DNA from: a virus
Length of the DNA stretch: 35,495 bases
Strand: one strand, 5' to 3'
IMG/VR virus record: IMGVR_UViG_3300027306_000009
Span: 1 to 35,495 of that record
The notes beneath the pieces are model-generated. The model worked only from the letters and a program-made list of their open reading frames with translations, did not search any database and had not been told where the DNA came from. Shown one piece after another: positions 1 to 26,085 of the stretch. Position numbers and translations under genes: made by a program. Within the stretch, counting starts at the first letter, position 1, and each line of letters begins with the position of its first letter.

Positions 1-3000
1 ACCGCGGCCCTGAACTCTCGGTAGTAGCCGATCTGCTCGTCCGTGAGCTTGAACTGGTCGCGCAGTTCCTTGTCGGTGAACACGACACCGGCCTCGCCGT
101 CGAATCCCTGCGAGACAGCCTCGTCCATGGGCACCAGTTGCCCACGCACGCGGGCCCACGACAGCGTGCCCTCGAAGATCGGCGCGGCGACTGCCTTGGC
201 GTCCGCCTCCTTCAGGCCGGTCTTTGCCAGGTCGCGCCAGTTCTCCAGTTTCGGCAGGATCGACGGGGCGTTGTCGGCTGCCTCGTTGGCCAAGGTCGAC
301 ACGCCCTCGATGTAGTCCTGCAGCTTGTTGAACACCGCACGGAAGGCCGGGAACTTTTGGGCCTTGGCGTACTGGGTCTTGAAGGTGCGGTCCAGCCAGT
401 CAACCTGGGCGCCAGCAGAGCCAAAGAAGTCCTGCACCGCTTCGCGGGCCTTGCCCGTGAACTGCTGGGCGGCCTGGGTTCGGCTGAAGCCTACGTCTTC
501 TCCGCCCAGCGCTTGAGGTGAGCCGCCTTTTGCTCGGGCGTCAGCTTGGCGATTCGATCCTTGGTCTTCTGCAAGGATGCCTTGTGCGCCTCTTGCTCGT
601 TGGGCTTGGAGGTAGGTGGCGTGGTTGATCGTGCCGTCATAGGCCGCTCCTTCTTCCCGGTTTTGGGTCGGAACCCCGATTTTCTCCCAGAAGCCCTGGG
701 CGGTGGGGATGATGTTGGACACGTTCATGTCCGTTTCAGGGTGTGCGGCCAAGAGCATGCCGACCGCCTTGGCGCCCACACCCTTGTTCTCGCCTTCCAC
801 GTTGATGTCCAGGATGGACACCGGCTGGCCATTCTCGACCAGCACCTCCATGTTGCCCAGCACTTCAAACGAGTCGGTGGGCATGATGGCGTAATTCAGG
901 ATCTTCTGGCCAGGGCCTGGGATGACCTCCAGGCGCTCGCTCTCAATCGGGAACACCAGAGAGACGCCGCCTGCGGCGTACACCCGCTCGCCGGACTCGT
1001 CGCGCTTGACCGCCACGGGCGAACCCTCACCGCGCGAGAAGCCACGGTCACGGCGGAACGCCGGGATAAGCCCCTGCCCACCATCGGGCGGTCCGTCCTT
1101 GATGAACCGCTGCACCGGCACGATCAACTCGCGGATGATCTCGTCATCGGTCATCCGCATCTTGGCCAGGGCCGGCACATTGCGACGCAACCACGAACGG
1201 ATGGCAGCCACCGCGCGACGCACAAAGCCCAACTGCGGGTTGTCCTGCGCGATCTCGGCAAGCCATTCCTCCGCGGCAATCTGGCGGTCCCGCGCGTTCT
1301 TCATGTTCAGGCCGTACTGCTTGGCCTTGACTTCCACATCGGCGCGGCGGGCGCGCGCCACCTGGTCAAGGATCTCGCCGATTTCCGTGCCGTACAGCCC
1401 GCGCATCCCCAGGTGCCCCAGCACCTCGTGGAACACCGCGCGGCGCACGTCGTTCATGGAGCGCATGTGGCTGGCCAGCAGATAGGCCTTGCCCTGGTGG
1501 TAGAAGGCCTCGGGCTCACCGGTCGCGCCGTTGGCCAACTGCCGATCGTTTTCCCGGCGCACCGCGTCCGGCGCCTCGTCCATGCTGCGCAGCACCACGA
1601 TTTCCGGTGCGTTCTTCCAGCCGTCCGTCAATTGGCGAACCAAGTCCTCCACCATGTCCATGTGGGCGATGGCGGTGATGGCGTCCTGGCGGCGGAAGCC
1701 TTCTTGGGAGCCGTCGCGGGAGAACAGGGTTTGATCTGCTGCATCTGGCGCGGCTGGCGCGTCTGAGCTCAGGGCTCGCACCACTTCCTCCAAGCGAGCC
1801 CGCTTGTCAGACAATTCCTTGGCCTTCGGGAATTCTTCCTTTTTGCGTTCCAACAGGGAAGGCAGGTCACGCTCAGCGCGCTCCATCTGACCCTGCATGT
1901 ACTTGACGGTCGAGGCATAGTCGGCTCGGCGCTGGATGTCGCCCTCCAACTGCTCCAGCAACTTGCGGCCTTGTGCGGTGGACATCTGGACAATGCCGTC
2001 GACCGAGGCCTGTGCCGTGGCCATCGTGCGCTCGCCATCAATCAGGTGGACGTCAACCGACGTGGACGTGTCACCTCGGGCGTTTCTGACCGGCTCCAAG
2101 TCAGCCACCAGTTTGTAGCCGAACATCTCCCCCAGGGTGATCGTTTCCGCCTCCTTCAGCCCAGCCTTGGCTTCGCTGACCAATCGGGCGACTTCACGCC
2201 CGGCCGAGGTGCGCTGCGCGTATTCAGCCCCACCAACCTTGGCAAGGAATGGGGCCGAGTCGCCCAGGGCGGCACCGATGGCGTCGTTGATGGCCTCTTT
2301 GCTGGTCGCGCGCTTGCCATCAATCGAGACGGCATAGCGGGCGTTCGGGTTACCCTCCTGCTGGGCCTCAACTGCCGCCAAGGCAGCGCGCATCGCGTCA
2401 GCCTGATCGGTGTAGGTCGCACCTTCCACGGAGACCGATCGGCCGGCGTGGGCCTGCTCCACGGCACGCACTCGCTCAGACAGCACCTTGCCGCGCTCTT
2501 CCTCCTTGCGAATCCGCTCAGGGTTCTCTCGCAGTGCTCGCTCCGCACTCTGGATGGCGTCCAGCACCCCATACATCTTGCGGCGGTGTGCGCGCTCCTG
2601 CAGTTCCAGGCTGCCAATCTGTGATTCCAGCGTCACGCGCTCCAGCAGCAGGGGGTTGCCCGATGCCAGGGCAGCCATTTCCGCCATGCTGACCGATTCC
2701 TCGTCCTCGAATTCCATCGAGAAAGCGCCGTCGTACTTGCGGATGCCGTTAATCATCCGCAGCTTCTGGGCGTTCAAGTCCCACATCTTGGCATCCACCG
2801 TGCGCTCGGTGGCGTAGGCCATGATCTCGACCTCGAAGCCATCAGGCCCGTACTTCTCCAACAGCTTGTTGCCCTGGCGGATGATGCGCCCTTCTCGCTG
2901 TTCGATGTCGCTGGGCTTCCAGGTGACGTCGACGTGGTGCAGGCCGACCAGGCGGTCTTGCACGTTGGTGCCTGCACCCATGCGCGGGGTTGAGCCCAGC

Positions 3001-6000
3001 AGCACGCGGACCTTGCCTCCACGAACGGCGTCAAACAACGCAGCCTTCTGCTCATCGTTCTGGGCTTCTTGGACAAACCGGATCTCAGCAGCCGGGATGC
3101 CCATGGCCACCAAGTTGTCCTTGATCTGCTGGTAGGCGTTCCATCCCGATGTCTGGGCGTTGCGAAGTTCGGCGATCTCGTTTGCGTCGAACTTCTCCAG
3201 CGCATCGGCGGCGGACTGATAGGCTTCGTCGTTGCGCTCAGCTAGGGCCTTGTCGCGCTTGGCCACAAGTTCGTCGTATTCCTTGACGATCTTGTCGTCG
3301 CCCTTCGCCTTGGGCACCGACCGATCCAGGAACACCAGTTGGGTGCCACGGTCAGCCGTCGACTTGTCATAGATGCGCTTGATCTCCTGCGAGACGCGCG
3401 CCAGTTTGCCGCCTTCCTCTGTGCTGGTTGATCGGGCGTCAACTGCGCGGATGTCCAAGGACACCTTGCGCGCACGGTCCATCAGGCGCAGGCGGGCGGC
3501 GTTGCGCTCGTAGGGGTCTTTGATGCCGTCCAGGCCGTCAAAGCCCGCGATGATCTCCTTGAGCGCGCCTTCTTGCGCTGGCGTAGGCTTGACCTTCACC
3601 AAAGTGCGGTCACCACCCTTGACCTTTGGCACCGGGAAAGGCTTGCCGTTGTTGTCCTCGGCAAACCACTTCTTGATGTCGTCGATGGACACCGCATCGG
3701 TGAACCCGTAGTAGGTGTCCATGAGAGAACGCATGTTCGCCCAGGTACGGCCCAAGCGCGTGACCTCTTTGAGGCGGCCGGATTCGGTGGGCTCAAACGC
3801 TGCCGAAGCCTCCACCGACTGCGCGCGCCAAGCGTCAAAGTGCTCCAGGCCCTGCTCCTTGAGCTCGTCGGCGGCCAGGTAGCGCATCATGGTGTACATC
3901 TCGACCGCGCTGTTGCTGATCGGCGTTCCGGTCATGAAAGTGACTGCCCCGCCACCCTCGCGCATCACCCGAACCTTGTTGTACAGGTCGGCGGCCTTGC
4001 GTGAGCCGGTCTTGTCTCCCATGCCGCGAACGCCCGTGAGGCGGGATGAGTAAAACAGGTTCTTGAACTCGTGAGCCTCGTCCACGGTCAGGTCGTCCAC
4101 CCCCAACTGCTCGAAGGTCAGCAGGCGGTCACGCACCCCGCTTTGCAGCTTGTCAATGCGGGTCTGGATCTTCTCGGCCAGTCGCTCGGCCTCCTTCACG
4201 CCGAACGGCTTGCGGAAACCAGAGTGCCCATCCTCTTGGGCCTGCTCTTCGGCTTCCTTGATGGCTGCCTTGGCCTGCTCCATCTCCTGCTCGAGGTAGC
4301 GCATCTCGGTCTCCGGCGAGATGCCGATGAACCCAAAGGAGGAATGAGGGACGATCACAATGTCCCAGTCACCCGTGGCGATCTTACCGAACAGGCGGCG
4401 GCGGCGCTTGGCCTCAAAGTCTTTCTGTCCGGCTGCCAGCACCTTGGCGCCAGGGTACAGACGGTACACGTCAGCAGCCCACTGCTCGACCAAGTGGTTC
4501 GGGACCACGATCATGGGCTTGCGCGCCAGCCCCATACGGCGACGCTCCATCGCGCGGGCGATGCCGGTGAAGGTCTTGCCGGCCCCCACAACATGGTCCA
4601 GCAGGAGGAATCGCGAAGCGATGCCGCGCCAGATGGCGTTCTTCTGGTGACGGCGCATCTGGATGATGGCGTCTGGCACCTTCCCGGGGAGCTTGAGATG
4701 CGAGCCGTCGAACTGCCGGTTGACGCGGGTGTTGAACTTCTCGTTGAAGAGGTCAACCAAGCGCTGGCGGCGGTCACCGTCCTTGAAAACCCAATCACCG
4801 AACTCGGCGACGATCTCCTTGGCCTTGAGTTGGGCCAGGGCGGTGCGCTCCTGGTCAACCTTCATGGACCCGTTCTCGTCCTTGTACGTCACCACCACCG
4901 GCTGGCTGTTCAGCAGGCGCGTGACGATGTAATCGGCAGGGGCCCCCTCAGCAGACCACTGCTCAGACTTGGCCCGCTCCGACTCGCGCACGTTGACGGA
5001 GAAGCTGTTGGTGATCGCAGAAAACGACACCGAGGCCTTGCCGCCCACCAGGGACTGAACAAACTCGGCGTACACGTCGCCCGGCACCCAGGTGGCACCC
5101 ATCTGCGCCGTGACGTTCTCTGCGGTCCACGCTTCCGGCTGCACCGCCTCCAAGGCCTTCACGTTGACCTCAAACCGAGGATCGCGCGCAGCTGCATCGC
5201 GGGCGGCGTTCAGCTTGCGGCGAACCATGCCAGACAGGTAGGCGTCCGCCGTCTCCCAGGTTTCCGACTCCGGGTCGGAGAACACCAGCGGCTTCTCACC
5301 CGATTGCAGTTCGGACACTGCGGCCTCCGGCGAAACGCCGCGCAGCGCTGCGATTCGCTCGATGTCAACCCGTCCGCGCTCAGCCAATGAGATCGCCAGG
5401 GCATCGGCTGCGGTCGCAGCTTTGGTAGGCGGCTCGTACTTCGGCACAACGCGCTCACGCAGGATCGGTGCAGCCGTGGCTTTCTCAGCCTGCACCTCGA
5501 GGCCGCTTCGTGCGGCCTGTGCCTTGGTTCGCTCCGGCTGATAGCCGACCTCGAGGGCCGTCACGAGCCCCCCGTCAGGCATCGTCATGGCCAATGCCAT
5601 GTTCGTGCTGCGGTTGACCGGGCCATGGGCGGCCACAAAGCGCGCGTAGGCGTCGGCCAGCTTCTTGCGGTTGCCCTCCATGACGGATGCCTTGGCATCC
5701 TCGGTTTCGAGCACCAACTGCTTCTTCAGCAGGTCACGCAACTCCACCAGACCCTGCAGACGCTCATACCCGGCTTTGCCCAGGCGCATGCCGTCAGGCA
5801 CCTCGGCCTCATTGGCGTAGGTCGTGCGCTTGTAGACGTTGCGCTTTGTCGCCTTGCCTTCCTTGTTCAGGGCCTTGACGGGCTTTCCGTCGTCGCCCAT
5901 TTCCACCTCGAGCTTGTACCAGCGGCCTTGGTCGTCCATGGACAACTGCTCAGACCAGGGGCTCTCTGGCGTGATCTGCTGGCGGGACATGATGTAACCA

Positions 6001-9000
6001 CCGTCCGGCGCCTCGCGCTCGATCACACGGACCAGCGCGCCCCCCTCATCGAACTTCATGTGGCCGACTTCTTCGTTGGCCACGGCAATGCGCAGGGCAT
6101 CAGCCAAAAGGGAGAACCGCTCTTCCGTTGCGGCCAGCACTTCGTCTGGGATGTTGCTGACATTCTCCGGCAGGCGGGCCACCGCATCGCGCAGCATGGA
6201 CTCCAGTTTGGTCGGGTCGTCCAGGCGAACCGTGATGTCGGCGCCTTGCTGCATGGAGCCAGAGCGCTCCAGAACGCCCATGATCTGCCCAGGATTCTGA
6301 GCAAAGTAGCGGTTGACGGTCATGGCCTCGCCGCCCAATGGGTCGCGCACCTTGTCGACTTCGATCCAGGCCGGCGCCTTGTCGGCCAGCGCACGGTCCT
6401 TGTCCTTTGCGCTGTTGGGCTTGAGGTAGTTGTCGATGACCTGCTCGCGGGCGGCCTGCTCGGCCGGCGTCAGCTTGCGCAGGATGATGATGTCCGTCAC
6501 CACCTCCGTGCGGGCGTTCTCCTTGAAAGCCGTGTCAGGCAGGCGGATCGCCGCAACCAGATCAGCCTGGCGAGCCAGCGCCACGCGGGTGGACTTGTCC
6601 TGCGCATCCATCAGGAACCGAGACACCACCTTGATCTGCAGGCCGCCCGGGCGCACCGCGTCCATGCCGGCGCGGAAGAACTGGTTGTGAATGGACACGC
6701 CCTGCAGTTCCGGCTTGAACTGGAAGCGCAGTGACTCCGACCCAAACGGGGGGTTGCCGATGTTCAAGGCAAAGGCGTTGTCTGCCACCGGCACCTTCTG
6801 GAAGCCGGAATTGAGCACGGCCGCCTGCGGGTAAAGAGCCTGGGCGATCCGCGATGTCAGGTTGTCGTACTCGACGCCGATGAACTTGCCCGGCAGGTCT
6901 TCGGGCTTGAGCCCCAAGAAGTTGCCGGTTCCCATGGAGTTTTCGAGCACCAGCCCACCGCGGAAGCCCAGCCGGCGCGCGGCATCCCACATGGCGCTGA
7001 CCACCACCTCAGAGGTGTAGTGAGCGTTGCGGGTCGACCGGCGCGCGTCGGTGTACTCCTTGTCGGACAACAGGGAGCGCAACTCTTCACCCCGGGCCTT
7101 CCATTTGTCCTTGAATTCGCCCGTCATCGGGTCAGGGAAGGCGTTTGCCAGGCCGCCCCATCCGACGTACCGCGCCAGGATGCGCTGCTCATCCGGGGTG
7201 GCGCGGCGGCGCTCGGCCTCCAGCGTCTTGAGCGTGCGGATGGCGTTCAGGTTGTCGTTGAACTTCTCGACCTCGCCGCCGCGCCCCAGGCGCAGGTCAG
7301 GCGTGATGCGGAAGTTCTGCGCCGGGACATTCGGCGCAGCCGGCGTTACAGCAGGCTCGGCTGGTCCGGGTCGCTTGGCTCGGCCATCTGCGCGCGGTAC
7401 TGCTTTTCGAGCTCGTCCAGTTCCTGCGTCTCCCAGTCCGTCAGCCCGGCGCCCTGCTCCGGCTTCAGGAAGACGTACTGCGCCAGCGCGACTTCCTCGG
7501 CTTCGGTCTGCTGATACCCCTGCTCCATCAGTTCCAGCACCATCCGCTGGGCGTTCTTGCCCGCTGTCTGCAGCGCTGCGTTGAACTTGTCCGCTTTCTT
7601 GAGGTCGGCTGTCATCTGCGGCAGCCACTTCGTCCAGTGCTTGCGGGCCTTGGCCGCGTAGGTTTCTGCGCTCATCGTCTTGCTCGCTGGTGGTTTCATC
7701 TGCAGTCTGGGCCGCTTGCGCGGGCTGGTCAACGGGTGTGTTTGCGGGTGCGTCGACGCTCGCCGACTCCACCTCTGCCGCCGTGCTCATGCCGTCCAGG
7801 CCTGCTGCACGGGGATCGTACTTCACCCCCATGTACCAGGACTTGAGGTAGGGGCGCACGCTGTCGCCCAGGTCTTCCAGCATGGCCTTGGCGTAGGCGG
7901 CAAACGTCCGGGCGCCCTTTTCGATGTGGTAGCCGGCCAGGGTGATGCCGGCCTGCATCATCTCGGGGTCAAGGCCGCTGCTCAGTTGCCCCAGCTTCTT
8001 GCGCAGGATCTCGCGGGCCTTGGCTGCTGCGTCCTCGGTGAAGATGGTGTTTGCGCTGGGCGTGGCGGCCTCGGCAACCTTCTTGCGGTCTTCGGCTCGC
8101 GTCTGGGCAGTCTGGCCGCGCTCGTAGGCAGCCATCTCCGGGTCGGCGGCCAGGTCATCGGTGACCGGGCCAGTTTTGAAATTCGCAAACGTCACGCCCT
8201 TGAGTGCTTCGCGGGCTGCGTCGCCGCGCCCCCAACCCCATTGGCGATCTGCGCCAACCGGCCCCTTGGTGAAAACCACGCTAGAGCCCTTTTCGCGGGT
8301 CTTAAAAACGTAGGTGTCGCGAGTGCCACTCTTGGCGCGGTCAAGCCAGGCCTCTTCCTCAAAGTCCGTGCCTGCGTACAAGATCACCCGCTTGCCGTCT
8401 TCCAGGCCCTGCAGCGCTTCGGCCAGCGTCTCGGGCTTGATGGCCTCGTTCGGCGCACCGTGGGGGCCCTTCTTCGGCTCAGCTTCCGCCTTCATCTCGG
8501 CGATCAACTTCTCCTGGCGCTTGATCCGTTCAGACACTCGGTCGTCCAGCACCCCGCCAAACTCGCCCGTGTTGCTGCGCATGGCATCCAGATCTTGCTC
8601 GGCCATCTCAAGGGTGTAGCCCGGCTCACCTTGTTGTGGGCGCGATGGCTTGTTGGCAGCCGGAAGCGCCTTGACCTCTTGCACCTCCTTGGCCTCACCC
8701 ACCACCTCGCCTGCCTGGCGCGCAACGGGTTCCTGGTCGTCCTTGCGGGCCTTGCCTTCGTCCCAGGCTGCGAGCCAGCGCGCCTTCTGGTCTTCGTTCA
8801 GGCCTGCGGGCGGGACCGGGGCCTCGCCGTTGGAGTGAGCAACCCGTCCAGCCTTCTCGGGGTCGGCTTTCGCGTACTCGGTGTTGAAGAACTCGACGCC
8901 CACAGCCGCGCGGGTCAGGTCGTTCAGGTCCAGGGTCTGGCGCACCGACAGGTTGTTGTTGCCGGCGAACTGCTCGCGCAGCTTGGTGAAGGCGCTCCAG

Positions 9001-11624
9001 CCACCTTCGCGCAAGGCGTCGCCCAGCGGCTTGGCCATGTCCTGCAGGGTCATCTGCTTGGCGGCCGGCGCGCTTGGCTTCGGTTCGGCTATAACGGGCT
9101 GGTTTTCGGCTGCGATCCTTGCCCGTACCGCCTCATCACCGCGCAGCATCACGCGCTTGACGCCCTTCAGTGGGTCGATGTCAGAGTCACGGTCCGCAAC
9201 GATGCCGACAGTTTTCCTGCCTTCTTTGATCGGCCCTGTGACGGTGTAGGACTCGCCATCAACACTCACCTTGTCGCCAAGGCGGATGTCAGTAAGCGGC
9301 AAATCGCCGTCCTTTGCCTCTTTGCTCGGTCGCTGCGGCGCACGCTTGGCCATCTCCTTCTGGATGGTCTTGGCACGCTTGTGGTTCGGCCCGTAGAAGG
9401 CCTGGGCCTCCTTCAATTCCTCGTCCGTCATCTCGGGGACGGTCTTGGTCTTGAGGAACGCAGGCGTCTTCCCCTTCAGTGCTTCACCGATTCCTCGGTC
9501 AGCTGATCCGTCAGGTACAGCACCTGCGCGACCGACTCCAGCCCCATCTCGGCCAGCAGAAGTCCCGCCTCGCTCATCGACAGCCACTCCCCCATCAGCA
9601 GGGCTTCGTCCATCGCTGCCCAGGCTTCGGACAGCGTCAGGTGCCCCATCAGCACCAGTTCGTTCAGCGGACCCGACAGTTTCGCCACCTCGGACATCGT
9701 CTGCTTCTCCTTGGGTTTGAACAGCCCAACCACCTTCGACGGGGACCACGTCACCGCCGACGCGGCGCTGCTCGAGCACGGCCGCGCGCTGGTTCTTGAA
9801 GGGCTCACCGTTGGGGCGGTAGACAAGGCGCGGCACAGGGCCTGCGGCAGGCCGTTGGCGCGCGGGCCGTTCAGCTGGTGTCAGCACCCCATCGCCCACC
9901 ATCACACCTGGGCCTGCGCCACGCATCGTGTCGCGCGGCGTCATGGCGTCCATGCCGGGGCCACCCTGCGGGCGATCCTTCTTTGCTGCTGCAGCTTGTC
10001 GGGTGTTGATCCGGTCGGCGTTCGTCTCAGGCGCCACGTTGCCCGCGGCATCTGCGCGGAACACACCGGTCTGCTCGGTGTCCAGTCCGATCTGAGGCAC
10101 TCCGACATCAGCACCGATGCGCTCCGGCGCCGAGTACGCGCCAGCGCCGAGGCCTCCGGGCTGCCCCATCGGCGTCAGGCGCGACCGAGAGACGATCTCT
10201 TCCGCCACCGCGAGCATGTTTTCTCGCGTCTGGTCGGGGATCTGCCCAGGGCGGTCGGCCTGGTTCAGGTAGTAGAGCACCTCATCGAGAGCCGACTGGC
10301 CGAACTTCTCCCGGATGGCTTGGCGGTTCCCCTCGTCAGCGATGGTTTCCCGCGTCGCCATGATCCGGTCCGCGAGCGCATCAAACGGCTGCTCGCTCTG
10401 CGCAAGCGGGTCGACGCCAGGCGCTCCCATTGCTGGGGCCCCTGCGGCATTGGCGTATGCGGACGGCCCCTTGTCCATGAACCCGGCCTGCTTCAACGCC
10501 TTCATGTCGGCGTCGCCCTGGGCCATGATCCCGTCCATGGCGTGGTTGTACTGGCCTTCGCTCAGACCAGGTGCTGGATTGCCGGATTGCATGGCTGCGG
10601 CCTCGGTATCCATCCGGTCAAGCGCCAAGTTGGCACCACGGGACAGGGGGCCGTTGTTGGGCAGGCGCGGACGCGCCACCACGCCAGCGGCACCGCCCAT
10701 GGCAGCACCCGTCAGGGCACCCAGAACGGCGGCTTGGTCCACCCCCTCGTCGATCGGCTTACCAAGCGCCAAGTTCTGCAGCGCCTGCTCCTGAACAGAC
10801 TGCGGCAGTTCTTCCAGCAAGCCTTCCGAAACGGCCCCCTCGAGCGTGCTGCGGACGATGCCCTTGCGCACCCCCGCATCAAGCGACCCTTGAGCGAGCA
10901 TCGTGTCGACGTCGCTGATGCCAAGTTTCTTGGCCACCTTGCCGCCCAAAGCGCCCAGGCCAGCAGTCAGCGCACCAATGGTGCCTGCAATGGCCGCCTG
11001 CTCGCCCGTCAGCAGGCCGTCCTGGGTTTGCTGGCGGATCTGCTCGGCAGAAGATCCAGCGGAGACGATGCCTTCACCCGCAGCTGCCGCAGCCAAGACC
11101 CCCACACGCGGGGCAACGCGCATCACCCCCTGAGCCACCGCACCGCCACCACCCATCAGCGGAACCGACTCCGCAACCGCCAGGGGAATCACGGATGGGT
11201 TGTCGATGACCGCGCCCAGCGTGCCCATGACGCCTTCGGCCTTCTGGACGTTCCCCAGGGCCTGTTTCGTCTGGTCGGTGTACTGCTCATCCAGGATGGC
11301 CTTGGCCTCGGCTGGGCGAAAGCCCACCTCTTCGAGCGCCTTGCCCGCACGGCCACCGCTGACCATGTCGGCCAGACCCACGGCAGCCTCGGGAACTGCA
11401 ATCGCGCCCTTGAGCGCGGAGATGCCAAGATCCTTGGCCCAGCCTGCCGCACCGCGGCCCGTCATGGGCGCCTGCGCCGGCTGCTCAAGCGTGACACCAA
11501 GCCCCTGAGCGACTTGCTCGCGCGTCAGATCCGGGTAGTCCAACTGGTGGATCATGTCCACCACCTGGGAGTCAGTGAGGGTGCTCCACTCCGGGCGGGC
11601 CTGCTTGATCTGATTGATGTCCAT
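1..11624 (-). CDS. Giant polyvalent phage protein, DarB-like methyltransferase-helicase with added domains (partial, 3' end outside window)
   Basis: This is one uninterrupted frame of 3874 codons from ATG 11624 to the left edge with no stop. I translated 11624-6721 codon by codon and checked the frame at landmarks further on. Order: a Gly/Ala-rich hydrophobic N-terminal part (about 70-330); helical and SH3-like modules typical of phage large polyvalent proteins (about 730-1290); an N6-adenine methyltransferase with YVGWGGL (1486), GTGN (1565) and catalytic NPPF (1624); an SF2/SNF2-type helicase with GAGKT (2347), DEAH (2515) and QREGR (2909); HEVLGH (3399), a possible metal site; and a GNAT-like segment (GVGAK 3615, FWEK 3645). 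Known relatives (P1 DarB and the polyvalent-protein family) travel in virions and protect incoming DNA from restriction; that role here is inferred. It follows two internal virion protein genes, which fits injection with the DNA. The start has a weak Shine-Dalgarno, but no alternative start exists in frame. Confidence 0.9.
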   Translation of the reverse strand, partial: MDINQIKQARPEWSTLTDSQVVDMIHQLDYPDLTREQVAQGLGVTLEQPAQAPMTGRGAAGWAKDLGISALKGAIAVPEAAVGLADMVSGGRAGKALEEVGFRPAEAKAILDEQYTDQTKQALGNVQKAEGVMGTLGAVIDNPSVIPLAVAESVPLMGGGGAVAQGVMRVAPRVGVLAAAAAGEGIVSAGSSAEQIRQQTQDGLLTGEQAAIAGTIGALTAGLGALGGKVAKKLGISDVDTMLAQGSLDAGVRKGIVRSTLEGAVSEGLLEELPQSVQEQALQNLALGKPIDEGVDQAAVLGALTGAAMGGAAGVVARPRLPNNGPLSRGANLALDRMDTEAAAMQSGNPAPGLSEGQYNHAMDGIMAQGDADMKALKQAGFMDKGPSAYANAAGAPAMGAPGVDPLAQSEQPFDALADRIMATRETIADEGNRQAIREKFGQSALDEVLYYLNQADRPGQIPDQTRENMLAVAEEIVSRSRLTPMGQPGGLGAGAYSAPERIGADVGVPQIGLDTEQTGVFRADAAGNVAPETNADRINTRQAAAAKKDRPQGGPGMDAMTPRDTMRGAGPGVMVGDGVLTPAERPARQRPAAGPVPRLVYRPNGEPFKNQRAAVLEQRRVGGDVVPVEGGWAVQTQGEADDVRGGETVGSAERTGADGAPDAVRSLGSDGRSPADGGVAVDERGGTSAGRDGAGVGRAGAVPDGSADRGIGEALKGKTPAFLKTKTVPEMTDEELKEAQAFYGPNHKRAKTIQKEMAKRAPQRPSKEAKDGDLPLTDIRLGDKVSVDGESYTVTGPIKEGRKTVGIVADRDSDIDPLKGVKRVMLRGDEAVRARIAAENQPVIAEPKPSAPAAKQMTLQDMAKPLGDALREGGWSAFTKLREQFAGNNNLSVRQTLDLNDLTRAAVGVEFFNTEYAKADPEKAGRVAHSNGEAPVPPAGLNEDQKARWLAAWDEGKARKDDQEPVARQAGEVVGEAKEVQEVKALPAANKPSRPQQGEPGYTLEMAEQDLDAMRSNTGEFGGVLDDRVSERIKRQEKLIAEMKAEAEPKKGPHGAPNEAIKPETLAEALQGLEDGKRVILYAGTDFEEEAWLDRAKSGTRDTYVFKTREKGSSVVFTKGPVGADRQWGWGRGDAAREALKGVTFANFKTGPVTDDLAADPEMAAYERGQTAQTRAEDRKKVAEAATPSANTIFTEDAAAKAREILRKKLGQLSSGLDPEMMQAGITLAGYHIEKGARTFAAYAKAMLEDLGDSVRPYLKSWYMGVKYDPRAAGLDGMSTAAEVESASVDAPANTPVDQPAQAAQTADETTSEQDDERRNLRGQGPQALDEVAAADDSRPQESGQVQRSAADSGQERPADGAGTDGAGVSADRSRGSRAGAVRLPEAGAGRRADGLGDAGTGRARKAVPRADGRAKRPGPAEPAVTPAAPNVPAQNFRITPDLRLGRGGEVEKFNDNLNAIRTLKTLEAERRRATPDEQRILARYVGWGGLANAFPDPMTGEFKDKWKARGEELRSLLSDKEYTDARRSTRNAHYTSEVVVSAMWDAARRLGFRGGLVLENSMGTGNFLGLKPEDLPGKFIGVEYDNLTSRIAQALYPQAAVLNSGFQKVPVADNAFALNIGNPPFGSESLRFQFKPELQGVSIHNQFFRAGMDAVRPGGLQIKVVSRFLMDAQDKSTRVALARQADLVAAIRLPDTAFKENARTEVVTDIIILRKLTPAEQAAREQVIDNYLKPNSAKDKDRALADKAPAWIEVDKVRDPLGGEAMTVNRYFAQNPGQIMGVLERSGSMQQGADITVRLDDPTKLESMLRDAVARLPENVSNIPDEVLAATEERFSLLADALRIAVANEEVGHMKFDEGGALVRVIEREAPDGGYIMSRQQITPESPWSEQLSMDDQGRWYKLEVEMGDDGKPVKALNKEGKATKRNVYKRTTYANEAEVPDGMRLGKAGYERLQGLVELRDLLKKQLVLETEDAKASVMEGNRKKLADAYARFVAAHGPVNRSTNMALAMTMPDGGLVTALEVGYQPERTKAQAARSGLEVQAEKATAAPILRERVVPKYEPPTKAATAADALAISLAERGRVDIERIAALRGVSPEAAVSELQSGEKPLVFSDPESETWETADAYLSGMVRRKLNAARDAAARDPRFEVNVKALEAVQPEAWTAENVTAQMGATWVPGDVYAEFVQSLVGGKASVSFSAITNSFSVNVRESERAKSEQWSAEGAPADYIVTRLLNSQPVVVTYKDENGSMKVDQERTALAQLKAKEIVAEFGDWVFKDGDRRQRLVDLFNEKFNTRVNRQFDGSHLKLPGKVPDAIIQMRRHQKNAIWRGIASRFLLLDHVVGAGKTFTGIARAMERRRMGLARKPMIVVPNHLVEQWAADVYRLYPGAKVLAAGQKDFEAKRRRRLFGKIATGDWDIVIVPHSSFGFIGISPETEMRYLEQEMEQAKAAIKEAEEQAQEDGHSGFRKPFGVKEAERLAEKIQTRIDKLQSGVRDRLLTFEQLGVDDLTVDEAHEFKNLFYSSRLTGVRGMGDKTGSRKAADLYNKVRVMREGGGAVTFMTGTPISNSAVEMYTMMRYLAADELKEQGLEHFDAWRAQSVEASAAFEPTESGRLKEVTRLGRTWANMRSLMDTYYGFTDAVSIDDIKKWFAEDNNGKPFPVPKVKGGDRTLVKVKPTPAQEGALKEIIAGFDGLDGIKDPYERNAARLRLMDRARKVSLDIRAVDARSTSTEEGGKLARVSQEIKRIYDKSTADRGTQLVFLDRSVPKAKGDDKIVKEYDELVAKRDKALAERNDEAYQSAADALEKFDANEIAELRNAQTSGWNAYQQIKDNLVAMGIPAAEIRFVQEAQNDEQKAALFDAVRGGKVRVLLGSTPRMGAGTNVQDRLVGLHHVDVTWKPSDIEQREGRIIRQGNKLLEKYGPDGFEVEIMAYATERTVDAKMWDLNAQKLRMINGIRKYDGAFSMEFEDEESVSMAEMAALASGNPLLLERVTLESQIGSLELQERAHRRKMYGVLDAIQSAERALRENPERIRKEEERGKVLSERVRAVEQAHAGRSVSVEGATYTDQADAMRAALAAVEAQQEGNPNARYAVSIDGKRATSKEAINDAIGAALGDSAPFLAKVGGAEYAQRTSAGREVARLVSEAKAGLKEAETITLGEMFGYKLVADLEPVRNARGDTSTSVDVHLIDGERTMATAQASVDGIVQMSTAQGRKLLEQLEGDIQRRADYASTVKYMQGQMERAERDLPSLLERKKEEFPKAKELSDKRARLEEVVRALSSDAPAAPDAADQTLFSRDGSQEGFRRQDAITAIAHMDMVEDLVRQLTDGWKNAPEIVVLRSMDEAPDAVRRENDRQLANGATGEPEAFYHQGKAYLLASHMRSMNDVRRAVFHEVLGHLGMRGLYGTEIGEILDQVARARRADVEVKAKQYGLNMKNARDRQIAAEEWLAEIAQDNPQLGFVRRAVAAIRSWLRRNVPALAKMRMTDDEIIRELIVPVQRFIKDGPPDGGQGLIPAFRRDRGFSRGEGSPVAVKRDESGERVYAAGGVSLVFPIESERLEVIPGPGQKILNYAIMPTDSFEVLGNMEVLVENGQPVSILDINVEGENKGVGAKAVGMLLAAHPETDMNVSNIIPTAQGFWEKIGVPTQNREEGAAYDGTINHATYLQAQRARGAQGILAEDQGSNRQADARAKGGSPQALGGEDVGFSRTQAAQQFTGKAREAVQDFFGSAGAQVDWLDRTFKTQYAKAQKFPAFRAVFNKLQDYIEGVSTLANEAADNAPSILPKLENWRDLAKTGLKEADAKAVAAPIFEGTLSWARVRGQLVPMDEAVSQGFDGEAGVVFTDKELRDQFKLTDEQIGYYREFRAA
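7346..7675 (-). CDS. Small phage protein (109 aa) nested out of frame inside the giant ORF
   Basis: The frame is +1 to the giant ORF and lies wholly inside it. Its product starts MSAETYAAKARKHW and is a balanced soluble helical protein with HWTKWLP near the N-terminus, an Ala/Glu-rich middle and a YVFLKPE motif. I recall small phage proteins with this general pattern (HW..WLP, then EA.E.AL..Y...PE), but cannot name the family. The giant frame here encodes Gly/Arg/Ala/Asp-rich low-complexity linker between a polyvalent module and the methyltransferase. ATG 7675 was chosen because the protein-like sequence begins there; ATG 7699 is also in frame, and neither has a strong Shine-Dalgarno. It ends in TAA. 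It could be a chance frame, but the amino-acid make-up argues against that. Confidence 0.6.
   Translation of the reverse strand: MSAETYAAKARKHWTKWLPQMTADLKKADKFNAALQTAGKNAQRMVLELMEQGYQQTEAEEVALAQYVFLKPEQGAGLTDWETQELDELEKQYRAQMAEPSDPDQPSLL
9476..9697 (-). CDS. Small protein (73 aa) nested out of frame inside the giant ORF
   Basis: The frame is +1 to the giant ORF and fully contained in it. ATG 9697 has an AAGGAG Shine-Dalgarno at 9712-9707 with a 9-nt spacer, far better than the giant gene's own. The product (MSEVAKLSGPLNELVLMGHL... to ...LTEESVKH) is acidic and amphipathic, rich in Leu, Met, Glu and Ala, and looks like a compact helical protein. In the giant frame the same bases encode a Gly/Ala/Asp/Arg-rich linker (about residues 643-717). 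I do not recognise a family. Expression is plausible from the ribosome site alone. Confidence 0.6.
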   Translation of the reverse strand: MSEVAKLSGPLNELVLMGHLTLSEAWAAMDEALLMGEWLSMSEAGLLLAEMGLESVAQVLYLTDQLTEESVKH

Positions 11625-25390: not shown

Positions 25391-25855
25391 TCAGATCACC
25401 TCTTCGGCGATGGTCTTGCCGTTGATGGAAGCGGACAACTCGACGCCCATGCGCTGCACCTGGACCTCAAGGGCGTCAGGCTGGGTACTGGGCATGCTGA
25501 CCAAGTCGCCCAGGCTCTCGCAGATCGCGTCAATGACCCGGTAGATGGTCGACTGGTCAGGGAAGAAGCCCATGGTGTGACAAGCCTTGAAGGCCGTGCC
25601 CATCAGGTGCGCGGTCGGGCTGCCATCCTTCTCGCAGAAGGCGAAGGCGTTGCGCTGCGGGATGACATAGGCGCCGCCATCCATGCGCATCGTGCGCGGG
25701 AACAGCACCATGCAGGGGTGAGGTCCGTCCGGGTCGATGTCGGGCCGGTGCAGCCATTGCAGGCTGACCACGATGTCACCCTTGACGAACTGGCGCCAGG
25801 CTCGATCGCCGCCCAGCTGGACCATGGGGAGGCCGGTTGATCCGAGGATGTTCAC
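25391..25855 (-). CDS. Hypothetical protein (154 aa), GTG start
   Basis: GTG 25855 overlaps the stop of the membrane protein gene (GTGA). The product begins MNILGSTGLPMVQLGGDRAW, has beta-rich segments (DIVVSLQWLHRPDIDPDGPH), and ends with an Ile/Val/Ala/Glu helix. Earlier in-frame codons read as a shadow of the upstream genes. I do not recognise a family. It is transcribed in the packaging-head cluster just before the portal. Confidence 0.72.
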   Translation of the reverse strand: MNILGSTGLPMVQLGGDRAWRQFVKGDIVVSLQWLHRPDIDPDGPHPCMVLFPRTMRMDGGAYVIPQRNAFAFCEKDGSPTAHLMGTAFKACHTMGFFPDQSTIYRVIDAICESLGDLVSMPSTQPDALEVQVQRMGVELSASINGKTIAEEVI

Positions 25856-26085
25856 GATTCGCAGCCCTCCGCGTTCAGGGACTTCTCGCCCCGGTAGACC
25901 TGGTAGATGGCGTGAGGGATGTAGTAGCCCCAACCCACAGCCACCAGCAGAGGCGCGATGACCTCTTGGGGCGTGGCCGGCTGGCCAGGCTTGCGCTTGC
26001 CGACCGTGAAGCCCACCAGCAAGATCAGCATGCAACCGGCGATGGCCAGGTAGATGCACAGGACGGTGACGAGAGCGGACTTCAT
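25852..26085 (-). CDS. Small membrane protein (77 aa)
   Basis: An N-terminal transmembrane helix (VTVLCIYLAIAGCMLILLVG) is followed by a short basic loop and a second hydrophobic stretch (IAPLLVAVGWGYYIPHAIY). The arrangement could suit a holin or pinholin, but no endolysin or spanin lies nearby, so I leave the function open. ATG 26085 overlaps the previous stop by four bases (ATGA). Confidence 0.72.
   Translation of the reverse strand: MKSALVTVLCIYLAIAGCMLILLVGFTVGKRKPGQPATPQEVIAPLLVAVGWGYYIPHAIYQVYRGEKSLNAEGCES

Follow-up and report, generated by a model that had tools for sequence, protein, structure and literature searches.

A giant DarB-like gene with nested reading frames

The window, by which we mean the whole stretch of viral DNA that was analysed (35,495 nucleotides), carries genes for terminase, portal, major head protein, tail fibre and internal virion protein that lead to a giant gene on the minus strand, the frame of which reaches the end of the contig without a stop codon (Table 1). 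PEp14-type podophages share this gene order up to the giant gene. A DNA methylase and an SNF2 helicase are joined in the single giant frame (PHROG 10089 at E=0; SNF2-rel_dom at cutoff). A separate protein with a match to a PHROG DNA methyltransferase (E 2.5e-10) is encoded at positions 25394-26059, upstream of the portal gene. An earlier note on this DNA had described two small ORFs nested out of frame in linkers of the giant protein, and inspection of the sequence bears out this description. Both ORFs, here called genes A and B, lie in the +1 frame relative to the giant frame, and the strong AAGGAG site that had been noticed before one of them belongs to gene A and is identical in the relatives L004 and L005. 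Over both ORFs the giant frame encodes low-complexity sequence rich in Gly, Ala, Arg and Asp, as had been described.

Table 1 Features of the giant gene and its nested ORFs in the window
Feature	Position	Strand	Remarks
Giant DarB-like polyvalent gene	3..11624	-	3874 codons; PHROG 10089 (DarB-like antirestriction), E=0
Shine-Dalgarno AAGGAG of nested gene A	9707..9712	-	9 nt before ATG
Nested gene A, 73 aa (P0001)	9476..9697	-	+1 frame; three diverged sequences; giant wobble constraint
Nested gene B, 109 aa (P0002), TnpV-like family	7346..7675	-	+1 frame; family comparison, wobble test
N-terminal (methylase) part of DarB-like methylase-helicase	5085..7304	-	Giant frame; directly downstream of nested gene B
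SNF2-type helicase part	2322..5084	-	Giant frame

How can a small frame that is used be told from one that is simply open? The length of an ORF is no evidence in this GC-rich DNA, since the same region contains antisense ORFs of 608 and 647 aa. The wobble position of the giant frame is, however, the second position of the nested codons, and a collapse of wobble substitutions is therefore a prediction of selection on the nested protein. This codon-level check, which the earlier note had proposed, gives such a collapse in both ORFs. Comparison of the window with L002 yields 421/308/1148 substitutions at giant codon positions 1/2/3 outside the small ORFs, such that 61% fall at position 3, whereas the corresponding counts are 28/22/14 over gene A (Fisher p 4e-10) and 22/8/6 over gene B (Fisher p 8e-8). 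Comparison with L005 yields 13/8/6 over gene A (Fisher p 6e-6). Judged by this pattern of substitution, selection acts on the encoded protein in both small ORFs. The Shine-Dalgarno sequence of gene B is weak in the window; a match shorter than 4 nt occurs in two of 71 relatives, namely the window and its close relative L002, and gene B may therefore depend there on coupling or on a weak site. A survey of low-wobble intervals also flagged a few stretches, in L013 (+656), L019 (-442) and L036 (-5311), that have no long open small frame, and these were taken as local misalignment.

Gene A is represented by three diverged sequences in all, and a structure model based on the three is helical with a pLDDT of 77. 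P0001 has no Pfam or PHROG match, and the search for relatives found none beyond its three distinct sequences; on sequence grounds, gene A is a second, lineage-specific case of nesting. In Pavtokvirus (PEp14, Pavtok and Stean; L009:9763-9990), a 76-aa ORF is nested in +1 at a similar place within the giant's upstream half; it has no sequence kinship to gene A of the window and shows wobble constraint of its own (p 1.5e-8 and 3e-6). A third nested +1 family, termed site C, comprises ORFs of 58-69 aa at 31 loci and lies ~6.5 kb downstream of gene B (for example, L036:14061-14267), with wobble tests giving p values of 8e-12, 3e-8, 2e-5 and 1e-3. Every nested site (A, B, C and the Pavtokvirus ORF) is in +1, a preference that likely stems from the genetic code itself, because common codon pairs, for instance ATG or CTG followed by A, produce stops in the other frame.

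The gene B family and its likeness to TnpV

A tblastn search with the gene B protein returned matches in five kinds of named phage, each within an annotated DarB-like gene and each in the +1 frame. Diverged queries and a profile extended the family to 70 loci in IMG/VR and 18 in genomes, in addition to the named phages VvAW1, LASTA, SopranoGao, PEp14, Pavtok, Stean, POI1126, Atu_ph08, Itty13 and Mwe-JY07. The giant of the Pseudomonas phage Itty13 (L012:4987-17325) is an open frame of 4112 codons, in place of which the annotation has three CDSs on the opposite strand. Before any filtering, the small ORF is in +1 and spanned by an open giant frame in 92 of 101 B-family loci, and it is in +2 in none. 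The nine exceptions comprise stand-alone copies (L091, L095, L096, L101 and L102), a degraded locus (L041), a contig end (L049) and PBC5, which occurs twice (L014 and L058). In PBC5 (L014:3716-19515) a change of frame immediately ahead of the small gene divides the giant, such that the small frame is fused in frame to the upstream half; this split may be natural or an old sequencing error. The extent of the giant upstream of the small gene ranges from ~27 codons in Fibrobacter L104 to more than 1000 in phages, and in both Fibrobacter loci (L104 and L109) the small gene sits, again in +1, close to the N-terminal end of a DarB-like giant. BcepIL02 and JC1 carry a more diverged nested ORF in the same place; its ribosome site is strong, its profile scores are weak and its wobble p is 1e-4.

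What kind of protein does gene B encode? The AlphaFold2 model of the family consists of five helices and has a pLDDT of 88 overall and of 96-98 over residues 1-70, and the protein is mostly acidic (median pI 4.9). The Pfam family TnpV (PF14198) weakly matches 26 of 61 family members at E<=0.01, and the Fibrobacter member L104 scores above the TnpV cutoff (35.5 bits vs 27). P0002 itself has no Pfam TnpV match, and for this reason it is named TnpV-like. Profile-profile comparison of the B family with TnpV gives an hhalign probability of 26%, with an E of 7e-4 and 47 collinear columns. In DarB/SNF2 giants of Clostridia, genuine TnpV is also found nested in +1, both on the Subdoligranulum plasmid L112 (144 bits, cutoff 27) and in the giant frame of the gut phage L122 (137 bits, cutoff 27). 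A second, stand-alone TnpV gene is present on the same Subdoligranulum plasmid (L112:9374-9712). TnpV-type ORFs are likewise nested in SNF2 genes on the Enterococcus faecalis plasmids L114, L126 and L127, and comparison of the nested ORFs of L126 and L127 gives a wobble p of 9e-13. A search for plasmid relatives with the VvAW1 protein as query found none; more distant TnpV forms do occur on plasmids.

The top structural match to the B protein is PG0816 of Porphyromonas gingivalis (PDB 2apl), with a Z of 8.1 and an rmsd of 2.1 over 64 residues, at 19% identity over the aligned residues and with the reservation that helical bundles readily give middling Z; the next best match has a Z of 4.1. The 2apl entry names no function. 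We take PG0816 to be a member of DUF1896, and a DUF1896 search in one phylum gave no match. In a viral fold search, the only match above noise was the PBC5 protein in which the same sequence is embedded, presumably the entry Q8W6J4. PDB sequence matches to the B profile were mostly designed helical proteins and were disregarded. Matches in NCBIfam were all far below cutoff. An assignment of P0002 as an endolysin (PHROG 938) was rejected, as the match is confined to the C-terminal 77 positions of a 2185-long profile that represents the PBC5-type upstream half, and Pfam finds no lysis domain in P0002.

Frame conservation over gene B and the origin of the nesting

Two frames overlap across gene B, and the question is which of them is conserved. 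Loci in which the giant is broken or absent were set aside first, and the frame comparison and the openness test were made on 71 non-redundant nested loci; the figures below thus cover nested loci only, unlike the unfiltered count given above. Where nucleotide identity is 60-70%, 55% of the amino acids are identical when the nested frame is translated, as against 39% for the giant frame and 40% for the third frame, which is not used. Since the giant frame is no better conserved than the unused one, it shows no detectable protein conservation over gene B. Its openness is another matter. The giant frame is open at 71 of 71 loci, whereas 3.3 would be expected with the codon usage of the flanks and 24.9 with within-gene synonymous shuffles, and the third frame is open over gene B at none of the 71. 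This excess of open giant frames over expectation indicates that both frames appear to be used. The giant frame over gene B in the 71 relatives consists of 18% G, 15% A and 12% R, while W, C, F, Y, I and M together make up 0.7%, and pairwise wobble tests across the B family give p values from 5e-4 to 2e-17. As far as the alignments can tell, it is the sequence of the small protein that is conserved, and of the giant linker nothing is kept beyond its open frame. The earlier suggestion that both frames are still in use is thus supported by a small frame that is conserved and a giant frame that is kept open, and it does not extend to the amino acids of the linker, which are not conserved.

How might such an arrangement have come about? 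The identity of gene B between loci follows that of the downstream methylase half (rho 0.81, Mantel p 0.001; median identities 0.52 and 0.54) and hardly that of the upstream half (rho 0.28), as would be expected if different upstream genes fused across gene B. The sequences fit an origin in which the small gene stood before a methylase gene and was subsequently taken into a larger frame that arose by N-terminal extension or by fusion. The earlier proposal that the giant was built by read-through of small genes gains from this co-evolution pattern, from the variable upstream reach of the giant and from the existence of stand-alone TnpV; the exact steps, stop loss among them, are inferred. Stand-alone homologs had been predicted, and they exist for the 109-aa family (TnpV of transposons and plasmids, and the five stand-alone loci listed above), whereas none was found for the 73-aa ORF. 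The prediction of a small gene between separate polyvalent-protein genes fared less well, as no clean intermediate was found, the nearest cases being the split PBC5 locus and, as a candidate, the Xanthomonas plasmid L113. Alternatively, the small gene may have been inserted into an already existing linker. In Variovorax, a stand-alone copy (L101:7862-8321) lies beside a type I HsdM-like gene on the opposite strand. The giant register at this locus is open for 149 codons in the absence of any giant, and this is perhaps a fossil of nesting.

A gene-in-gene model and its relation to known systems

We hypothesize that the locus is a gene within a gene, in which the giant coexists with internally started small genes in +1, the linker is a passenger, and the methylase-helicase has the B protein as a partner, and we consider this reading highly probable. 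A single mRNA would carry the giant DarB-like gene, and both products would come from the same message, with ribosomes also initiating within the giant at the start codons of the small genes themselves, in the +1 frame. The product of gene B, whose coding sequence closely precedes the methylase/helicase part, would then be a TnpV-like protein that is small, helical and in most cases acidic, while the giant frame over gene B would yield a Gly/Ala/Arg/Asp-rich linker whose sequence would be immaterial as long as it contains no stop. Position and co-evolution suggest that the B protein could act as a subunit, chaperone or regulator of the methylase-helicase and would thereby protect incoming DNA at entry; entering P1 DNA is protected by DarB (PMC5512222).

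One competing hypothesis is that ribosomes on the giant mRNA slip to +1 by programmed frameshifting, such that the small protein is the C-terminal domain of a truncated giant. The PBC5 small frame, which is in frame with the upstream half, and PHROG 938, which fuses both, are what slippage would predict. However, the small ORF has its own conserved ATG or GTG and Shine-Dalgarno sequence (a match of at least 4 nt at 69 of 71 B-family starts vs 22% of other ATGs), an in-frame stop within five codons upstream of the start leaves hardly any room for slippage at 12 of 71 loci, and the residues before the start are not conserved, all of which makes frameshifting very unlikely. It is scarcely credible that the small ORFs are open merely by chance in GC-rich coding DNA. 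GC-rich frames are often open, and the long antisense ORFs of the same region illustrate this, but the codon-position tests, the conserved Shine-Dalgarno sequence and the confident fold argue against chance, as do the Enterococcus plasmids, whose nested ORFs have 42-49% GC and for which synonymous resampling gives a probability of an open giant frame below 1 in 2000. Conversely, only the small gene might be used at each site, the giant being in reality separate proteins whose frame is open by accident. Although the lack of amino-acid conservation over the small gene and the PBC5 split would accord with such an accident, it is rendered highly improbable by the openness of the giant frame at every nested locus, by the third frame being always closed, and by the detection in JC1 virions of gp69, the DarB-like giant of this relative, with 51 unique peptides (PMC9144972).

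A further alternative concerns the role of the B protein, which could be an independent mobile-element factor, active in excision or as an acidic antirestriction protein, that resides in a tolerant linker and has no partnership with the methylase. TnpV has been postulated to act in the excision of Tn4451 on the basis of homology to Xis (PMC3158075), and the low pI of the B protein and the stand-alone copies without a nearby giant, one of which adjoins the HsdM-like gene, are consistent with such a factor. Against it, the place upstream of the methylase is kept across phyla, gene B co-evolves with the methylase and not in the same way with the upstream half, and PADLOC gives no match. We therefore regard an independent factor as unlikely and retain the B protein as a probable partner of the methylase-helicase. 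A broader proposal, for which the case seems to us evenly balanced, is that the partnership of a TnpV-type protein with DarB-like methylase-helicases is ancient, that the giant frame engulfed the small gene in phages, plasmids and integrative elements belonging to three or more phyla, that giant polyvalent proteins were thus built by read-through of small genes, the frameshifted products of which turned into tolerated linkers, and that A, B and C arose independently.

Under the gene-in-gene model, about ten named phages as well as Enterococcus plasmids would encode a further, predicted protein that has so far escaped annotation, and the poorly understood TnpV family would gain a genomic partner in the DarB antirestriction enzyme. 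Translation through small genes would provide a route for the growth of giant multi-domain proteins, and the usual roles of overlapping genes would be reversed, with the large gene as the passenger across the overlap. Some misannotation, as in PHROG 938 and PBC5, would also be explained. The arrangement was not found in literature on TnpV with nesting or methyltransferase or on DarB with overlapping genes, in a search that lay mostly outside subscription journals, and the paper on polyvalent proteins makes no mention of genes nested out of frame.

Comparison with known systems places these observations in context. The giant of the window resembles DarB of P1 in the fusion of a methylase to an SNF2 helicase, but the methylase stands at the very start of P1 darB, which lacks a TnpV-like ORF. 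TnpV of Tn4451-type transposons and plasmids resembles the B family in size, helical core and aligned core motif, yet it is described as a stand-alone gene, unlike the nested gene B. Nested phage genes are known from phiX174, where E lies in D, and from lambda, where Rz1 lies in Rz; in both, as here, the overlap is complete and out of frame, and the inner gene has its own start. In contrast to the phiX174 and lambda pairs, the nested gene here looks like the older and conserved one, the host frame is the overprinted passenger, and the nesting spans phages, plasmids and several phyla.
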